Shown piece by piece: positions 49,032-49,114 of a stretch of 55,480 nucleotides of DNA. The DNA is taken from NCBI GenBank assembly GCA_001819875.1, contig MHNR01000023.1:54640-110119 (forward strand), read 5' to 3'. A program made the position numbers and the translations under genes. Source of the DNA: Candidatus Ryanbacteria bacterium RIFCSPHIGHO2_02_FULL_48_12. Its GTDB lineage: Bacteria; Patescibacteriota; Minisyncoccia; Ryanbacterales; 2-02-FULL-48-12. The stretch's first letter is position 1, and every line of letters begins with the position of its first letter. The notes below the pieces were generated by a model. That model searched no databases, was not told where the DNA came from, and saw only the letters and a list, made by a program, of their open reading frames with translations.

Positions 49032-49114
49032 GAAAAATCCGTATAAAGGAGCTAGATCTAGGGGAAACGTCCGCCTTGCGGCAGACAGATCTAGCTCCTT
49101 TATACGGATTTTTC
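49032..49114 (-). ncRNA. Perfect 28-bp inverted repeat with GNRA-capped tip
   Basis: Arms 49032-49059 and 49087-49114 are perfect complements over 28 bp (GAAAAATCC ... AGATCT). On the minus strand the loop folds further: GTCTGCC-GCAA-GGCGGAC (7 bp, GNRA tetraloop) with a one-sided 9-nt bulge GTTTCCCCT. The GNRA cap exists only in the minus-strand RNA. Tail ends TTTTTCTTT. Function unknown: strong terminator, regulatory RNA, or miniature element. The gap 48887-49297 holds no supported gene. Confidence 0.6.

Follow-up and report, generated by a model that had tools for sequence, protein, structure and literature searches.

A conserved long-hairpin RNA with a C-rich bulge and a complementary leader loop: a probable, hitherto undescribed cell-surface regulator in bacteria with very small genomes

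What is a palindrome with two perfect 28-nt arms doing in the genome of Candidatus Ryanbacteria bacterium RIFCSPHIGHO2_02_FULL_48_12? We looked into this question in a stretch of 55,480 nucleotides from that genome (the window, here always the whole stretch) and in related genomes, which are cited by handle (G002 and the like) where they have to be told apart. The original prediction had offered a regulatory RNA, a long leader hairpin or a miniature element. Our analysis favors a gene for a small structured RNA on the minus strand that, judging from sequence comparison, probably regulates the cell surface and is new to description.

The palindrome as a conserved RNA helix

The palindrome is the first of the eight inverted repeats listed for the window. 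Its arms (positions 49,032 to 49,059 and 49,087 to 49,114) are 28 nt each, 100% complementary and separated by 27 nt, just as predicted. Of the 69 perfect inverted repeats (arms of at least 13 nt, loops of up to 120 nt) in 985,606 of the 990,529 bases of its own genome, scanned in stretches of up to 20 kb, where repeats spanning stretch borders could escape, it was also the longest; five simulated sequences of the same size (second-order Markov) held no arm longer than 15. Read on the minus strand, the hairpin (49,032 to 49,114) has its 5′ arm at 49,087 to 49,114, an apical stem-loop GTCTGCC-GCAA-GGCGGAC with 7 bp at 49,069 to 49,086, a one-sided bulge of 9 nt on the 3′ side, GUUUCCCCU, at 49,060 to 49,068 (predicted unpaired probability, 0.97), and its 3′ arm at 49,032 to 49,059. 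The minimum free energy of this strand was −64.3 kcal/mol over 121 nt (z = −10.9; equally stable shuffles, 0 of 200). The fold claimed for the minus strand thus stood, and the claim that only one strand forms it was too strong: the plus strand also makes the 28 bp with a poorer apex (z = −8.8; bare hairpin, −51.0 kcal/mol versus −55.9 on the minus strand). A DNA search of the own genome for similar hairpins (E ≤ 10) returned the locus itself and one 15-base match only.

Other palindromic and structured elements were seen in the same genome. A dispersed palindrome, GGAAGTC(N)GACTTCC, lies at 49,192 to 49,224 of the window and at L030:10256-10302 and L035:847-894; it has 15 copies in 985,606 bases, and G002 has 3 in 318,498 bases, two of which, when viewed, lay inside open reading frames. 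At three tRNA genes, perfect inverted repeats lie on either side of the gene and extend its acceptor stem outward (L046:3621-3731, 21 bp; L041:819-914, 19 bp; L029:5362-5452, 17 bp). The RNase P RNA (RF00010, 139 bits; L040:4989-5559, minus strand, about 570 nt) contains two very long perfect helices, one of 21 bp with a 43-nt loop and one of 23 bp with a 63-nt loop. Another long hairpin (AATGGCTTTGTTGAGC..., L052:3834-3908) has an alignable counterpart in G002, a second genus (L078:6425-6501), reached no Rfam gathering cut-off, and is a candidate for a further structured RNA.

Homologues were found with covariance models. A DNA search with 131 bases against 54 genomes, the own genome included, gave no true homologue (a G040 match was a 24-base match to the flank), and a scan of viral contigs for the exact arms gave no match; two look-alikes that the exact-arm scan picked up in genome contigs of Chitinophaga and Mediterraneibacter differed in the middle and were judged by eye to be nonhomologous. 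A model built from the single minus-strand hairpin recovered two of the three other genomes of the family among 92 genomes with the own one included (G002, 54 bits; G003, 50 bits), and its matches in G013 (32.4 bits) and G067 (21.0 bits), plain hairpins lacking the bulge, were set aside. A three-sequence model also detected G001, which puts the hairpin in every one of the four family genomes, and across 383 genomes of the class this model found G156, G037 and G102 from other families together with a weak match in G034. A seven-sequence model then reached at least 15 of the 383 class genomes, own included, in 13 genera (E ≤ 0.01), and at least 2 of 379 genomes at the phylum level, one of them the own genome (E ≤ 0.001); because of stricter Infernal filters and a limit of 11 scored candidates for each genome, the genome counts of the three- and seven-sequence models are lower bounds. 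The G034 match (L100, 26.0 and 32.7 bits) and the G001 C24 match (L094, 22.6 bits) were excluded from models and counts on score alone, as were, also on score, three weak G002 matches (L093, L095 and L096), two of which coincide with short palindromes. G612, from another class, is a possible member (48.3 bits, bulge AGUUCCC, no GGGGAAA in the stretch examined) and was kept out of the 15-genome count.

We then evaluated whether the arms had changed together. In the three-sequence alignment, 10 of the 28 pairs had both sides changed and 96.4% of the cells were paired, a value that no shuffle reached; with the helices slid by 1 to 3 columns, at most 50% were paired. In the seven-sequence alignment, both sides were changed in 21 of the 28 pairs (41 cells versus 12.5 expected; 0 of 500 shuffles), and 92.8% of the cells were paired (shuffles as high, 0 of 500; slid helices, at most 48.7%). 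These both-sided changes indicate a conserved RNA helix. The worry that the palindrome is an artefact did not hold. The compensatory changes also bear on the possibility that it is a miniature mobile element or a functionless product of quasi-palindrome correction. The perfect 28-bp arms would suit such an origin, as would the other long perfect inverted repeats of the genome, those of the RNase P RNA and the tRNA surroundings among them, and the lack of any SbcD match in the own genome; against it stand the single locus in the genome, the related gene context in a second genus and compensatory changes across 13 genera, and we consider it highly improbable.

Rfam 15 had no family that reached its gathering cut-off at the hairpin or the homologous loci. 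In the region 48,850 to 49,320, searched at E ≤ 10, the best match to the hairpin was mir-617 (25.4 bits versus a cut-off of 80), and over the whole window the only match was a tRNA (28,054 to 28,125). We are nearly certain that the palindrome encodes a conserved RNA, one that fits no family of Rfam 15.

Strand and ends of the transcript

The pattern of noncanonical pairs points to the minus strand. Read on that strand, the alignment has 20 G-U cells versus 5 A-C cells (P = 0.004), and four of the five A-C cells come from G001. The sense score exceeded the antisense score at every locus where both were listed, a comparison that leans to sense because the model was built on that strand. Together, the G-U asymmetry and the model scores favor the minus strand, and the prediction of a regulatory RNA there gained support from the cross-genus covariation, this asymmetry and the conserved context described below.

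Next, we assessed the two ends. A clear sigma-70-like site lies upstream of the hairpin in G156, G037, G036, G080 and G102 (0 to 2 of 100 shuffles as good) and a moderate one in G002, G004 and G187 (5 to 8 of 100); the match was unconvincing in the own genome and in G001, G003, G060, G115, G139 and G357 (20 to 91 of 100), the own site being a weak TTCACA-17-TAGTGA at 49,132 to 49,160 on the minus strand (39 of 100 shuffles as good). At the other end, a U-run stands at the base of the hairpin in the own genome (UUUUUCUUU, 49,029 to 49,037, minus strand, terminator-like) and in many homologues; it is absent from G001, whose hairpin has no outer helix, and from G060 and G139, and it is short in G036 and G102. 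With promoter-like sites on one side and U-runs on the other, these sequences suggest that the hairpin RNA is likely made as a transcript of its own.

A U-run after a strong stem also suggests a simpler function, that of a strong, perhaps bidirectional, intrinsic terminator or insulator between transcription units, with an unusually long stem. The A-run and U-run at the base (AAAAATCCG/CGGATTTTT) are shared with many shorter palindromes of the own genome and agree with this. The missing or short U-runs of five homologues do not, and a terminator would not account for the conserved bulge sequence with its conserved downstream complement or for covariation between genera; to our knowledge, the arms of terminators cannot normally be aligned from one genus to another. 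We regard termination as the sole function as rather unlikely, and the hairpin is most likely more than a mere terminator. Sequestration of a Shine-Dalgarno sequence by the arms (AAAGGAG occurs in both 5′ arms) was rejected, there being no start codon at a usable distance.

The conserved bulge and a complementary loop downstream

The original prediction had pointed to the bulge and the GCAA loop, and only the bulge proved to be conserved. The apical stem and loop vary among homologues (GCAA in the own hairpin, UUUA in G002, GUUACA in G003, and others elsewhere), and the bulge reads (G/A)UUUCCCC in 12 of the 15 hairpins, the exceptions being G115 (AUUUCCUCC), G357 (AUUUCCC) and G139 (GUUCCCC). 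In 12 hairpins whose folding was predicted, the unpaired probability of the bulge was 0.51 to 0.98, with only 0.51 to 0.58 in 7 of them.

The exact complement of UUUCCCC, GGGGAAA, lies 77 to 204 nt downstream of the hairpin in 10 of the 15 genomes, and an eleventh, G187, has GGGGGAAC in its place. GGGGAAA occurred in five of six downstream regions of 600 nt, a frequency equaled among all 16,384 7-mers only by the AT-rich AATTAAT. The motif was first noticed on the initial loci; of eight loci fetched afterwards, five (G036, G004, G060, G080 and G115) had it within 204 nt. In G115, bulge and partner have changed together (AUUUCCUCC with GGGGGAAAU), and in G004 the match between bulge and leader extends to 11 nt. 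Taken singly the matches are modest, with 0 to 63 of 200 shuffles pairing as well per locus; in G357 and G139 the figures were 115 and 70 of 200, with no target apparent, and no clear target loop lay within 300 nt of the hairpin in G037, G139 or G357.

A small stem with covarying sides carries GGGGAAA in its loop; the stem has six pairs, with 68 of 72 cells paired across 12 genomes (0 of 2,000 shuffles as high; the alignment rows were set by hand). In 10 of 11 leaders the second hexamer of a promoter-like site precedes this loop by 28 to 46 nt, and a GGTCG motif follows it in 10 of 11; among the 11 leaders that lie outside the window, a script found a terminator after the loop in 6, and it found one in the own leader as well. 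In 7 of 12 leaders the loop also has a strong local alternative partner, which starts 36 to 55 nt past its first G and was equaled by at most 2 of 200 shuffles; the leader thus seems able to adopt two mutually exclusive folds. In whole leaders of 135 nt, the GGGGAAAC loop was predicted to be mostly paired in 8 of 12 (unpaired probability, 0.00 to 0.27). Two further motifs were seen in these regions. GGTCG(A/G) stands before the start codon in the leaders of G001 to G004, G036, G060, G080, G102, G156 and G187 and in the own leaders of 44,100, 45,833 and 47,311, and is common to the leaders of unrelated surface proteins. A DnaA-box-like TTATCCACA or TTTTCCACA lies between hairpin and leader loop at L088, L089, L092, L097, L099, L105 and L107.

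The genes that follow are largely of one kind. Downstream on the same strand, most loci have a gene for a secreted-type protein, and the loop precedes a surface-protein-like gene in all 11 loci except G115. In G002, G003, G156, G102, G036, G004, G060 and G080 the product is a Gly/Asn-repeat protein whose start resembles a signal peptide by eye, in G001 and G187 a TasA/camelysin-like protein (PF12389, E values of 3.1 × 10−6 and 1.8 × 10−5), and in G357 a protein with a chitobiase-C-terminal-like domain; G115 has a GIY-YIG gene at this place and G037 one for a family 2 glycosyltransferase, neither of them a surface-protein gene. Both upstream genes of G002 are related to genes of the window, one to 53,017 to 54,027 (59% over 90 residues, the cupredoxin part) and the other to 51,154 to 52,047 (35% over 237), which makes the neighborhood common to two genera.

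In the window itself, the gene between hairpin and surface gene is P0001 (48,326 to 48,886, minus strand), an open reading frame for a membrane-type protein (by eye). The idea of a long leader hairpin belonging to this membrane-protein gene was not upheld in that form: P0001 had no Pfam match and no match in 53 other genomes, and it is the hairpin that is conserved, mostly upstream of secreted surface-type proteins. P0002 used as a search anchor gave one weak match in other genomes. A leader of the target type occurs about 1.5 kb from the hairpin, beyond P0001, and precedes P0005 (46,028 to 47,311, minus strand), a secreted-type surface protein that shares 41% identity over 280 columns with the protein whose gene follows the hairpin in G139. 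On the minus strand, this leader has a promoter-like TTGATA-17-TATGCT at 47,573 to 47,601 (9 of 100 shuffles as good), a stem-loop UCUCGC-AAGGGGA-GCGGGA at 47,499 to 47,518, recognized by eye as a diverged counterpart of the GGGGAAAC loop, the GGTCG motif, and a terminator-like hairpin found by script at 47,387 to 47,415.

The own loop has drifted to GGGGA while the hairpin retains GUUUCCCCU. Pairing between the two comes to 6 to 7 bp by eye, and the loop follows its local partner (GGGAGC/GCUCCC) and not the small RNA, so the proposed pairing is weakest in the window where the palindrome was found. A first search of the own genome with GGGGAAAC gave no target adjacent to the hairpin. This mismatch is the main evidence against a simple match of small RNA and leader in this genome. 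Another leader of the own genome, that of the gene with its start at 44,100, has GGGGGAAAGG near 44,299 and is by its sequence a possible target in trans. The region from 41,866 to 47,311 (minus strand) encodes neighboring secreted-type proteins with a common N-terminus (MKK...FEAHVINVTA) and differing C-terminal parts; two of the proteins carry VWA and SpaA-like domains.

Proposed control of surface genes and comparison with known RNAs

We propose that the palindrome encodes a small structured RNA, read on the minus strand. In several relatives a sigma-70-type promoter of its own would lie immediately in front of it, and in many the RNA would end in the U-run at the base of the long helix. 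That helix would serve as a rigid scaffold displaying the single-stranded (G/A)UUUCCCC. The transcription unit that follows, usually a secreted surface-type gene, would begin with a leader whose small covarying stem-loop shows NNGGGGAAAC 28 to 46 nt past the second promoter-like hexamer, and the UUUCCCC of the bulge would kiss the GGGGAAAC loop of this leader. Since the two motifs are complements, a kissing contact is the most likely relation between them, and on sequence grounds we think this pairing probable. In most leaders GGGGAAAC could alternatively pair with the local UUUCCCC-like strand 36 to 55 nt past the first G of the loop, and the small RNA would then supply this strand, on which the choice of leader fold depends, for a third time. 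Once paired, the small RNA would keep the leader folded as the stem-loop, which would set the expression of the surface protein, in either direction, by way of transcription attenuation or leader stability. For this reading as a whole (a separately transcribed small RNA whose bulge pairs with the leader loop, shifts leader folding and controls the surface protein), we put the probability at roughly 0.6. Attenuation as the means of control falls a little short of an even chance.

The same arrangement could be explained without a second transcript. Hairpin and GGGGAAAC stem-loop might both belong to a single long leader RNA of the surface-protein gene, where they would pair in cis after the manner of a pseudoknotted, riboswitch-like element. 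Order, strand and the short gap of 77 to 204 nt are alike in 11 loci, the conserved motifs are complementary, and G156, G060, G080 and G187 have only weak promoter-like sites in the gap (17 to 84 of 100 shuffles as good, within a range of 7 to 84 for all loci outside the best six). At those six of the 11 loci (G001, G002, G003, G036, G115 and G004), however, the intervening site was equaled by only 0 to 4 of 100 shuffles, many loci have the U-run at the base of the hairpin, 1.5 kb and a gene separate hairpin and loop in the window, and in G037 the hairpin precedes a glycosyltransferase gene, with no loop. We judge the single leader unlikely.

The complementarity might also be incidental, with hairpin and leader loop each bound by the same RNA-binding protein. 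Both motifs are near-invariant, and they vary little together (G001 has AUUUCCCC with GGGGAAAC, G003 has GUUUCCCC with GGGGAAAA). One protein site gives no expectation of complementarity, however, and the joint change in G115 and the 11-nt match in G004 also argue against a shared protein, which we take to be improbable.

Returning to the small RNA that pairs with the leader, a more specific form of the proposal is a two-part control in which the RNA encoded upstream presents in trans a copy of the leader's own switching strand, GUUUCCCC, kisses the GGGGAAAC loop and sets both the leader fold and the amount of TasA-like or repeat-rich surface proteins in these bacteria with tiny genomes; we advance it tentatively, inclining somewhat to doubt. 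If the proposal is true, it would add a conserved pair of small RNA and target to a lineage in which our literature search showed none. The target predicted for it is concrete, and the genomes are very small ones, of a kind whose regulation is poorly known. In such organisms, contact with other cells would be governed by cell-surface proteins, the kind of target predicted here. With two complementary motifs, the hypothesis can be tested by compensatory mutation in a reporter, without culturing the organism.

A full-text literature search on Patescibacteria with inverted repeats, small RNA or riboswitches found nothing, and in the passages retrieved from the best matches of a search on candidate phyla radiation or Saccharibacteria structured RNA, terminators and small RNAs, this RNA was undescribed. 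A survey of inverted repeats, according to the sections available to us, covers spacers of up to 8 bp, and the palindrome would for this reason be absent from its list (PMC13155455).

Compared with known RNAs, the hairpin is like the bacterial small SRP RNA (RF00169) in being a single hairpin RNA of about 90 nt. It differs in that, by eye, what we take to be the SRP domain IV motif is not apparent. RF00169 had no match in the own genome and 26 relatives, versus matches in 11 of 14 control genomes; with no match at the hairpin either, identity with SRP RNA was rejected.

Closer likenesses are found among the small RNAs of Gram-positive bacteria with C-rich (UCCC) seeds, LhrC of Listeria, RsaE and FsrA, of which LhrC targets the mRNA of a surface adhesin; like them, as the retrieved part of that report describes them, the hairpin RNA has an unpaired UCCC complementary to a G-rich site in an mRNA leader (PMC4132741). 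Unlike in those RNAs, the seed would here be held in the bulge of one long hairpin, the RNA gene lies directly upstream of its likely target, and the partner is not the ribosome-binding site but a stem-loop close to where the leader begins: the conserved complement lies in the 5′ part of the leader, far from the start codon, and G156 alone also has GGGGAA just before it.

The antisense RNAs of pT181 and pIP501 are cis-encoded: target and antisense RNA come from the two strands of one piece of DNA. The RNA proposed here would be a separate gene in the same orientation as its target and with no overlap, and its complement is short (7 to 11 nt in most loci). It nonetheless resembles pT181/pIP501 attenuation, as the retrieved parts of those reports present it, in that a small hairpin RNA would, as predicted here, kiss a stem-loop of the leader, ahead of a terminator that a number of the leaders here have, and in that the leader appears able to fold in alternative ways (PMC3753616, PMC4878617). 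As a defining feature of the UCCC-seed small RNAs and one of the kissing attenuators are each missing, we file the hairpin RNA with neither and set it beside both.
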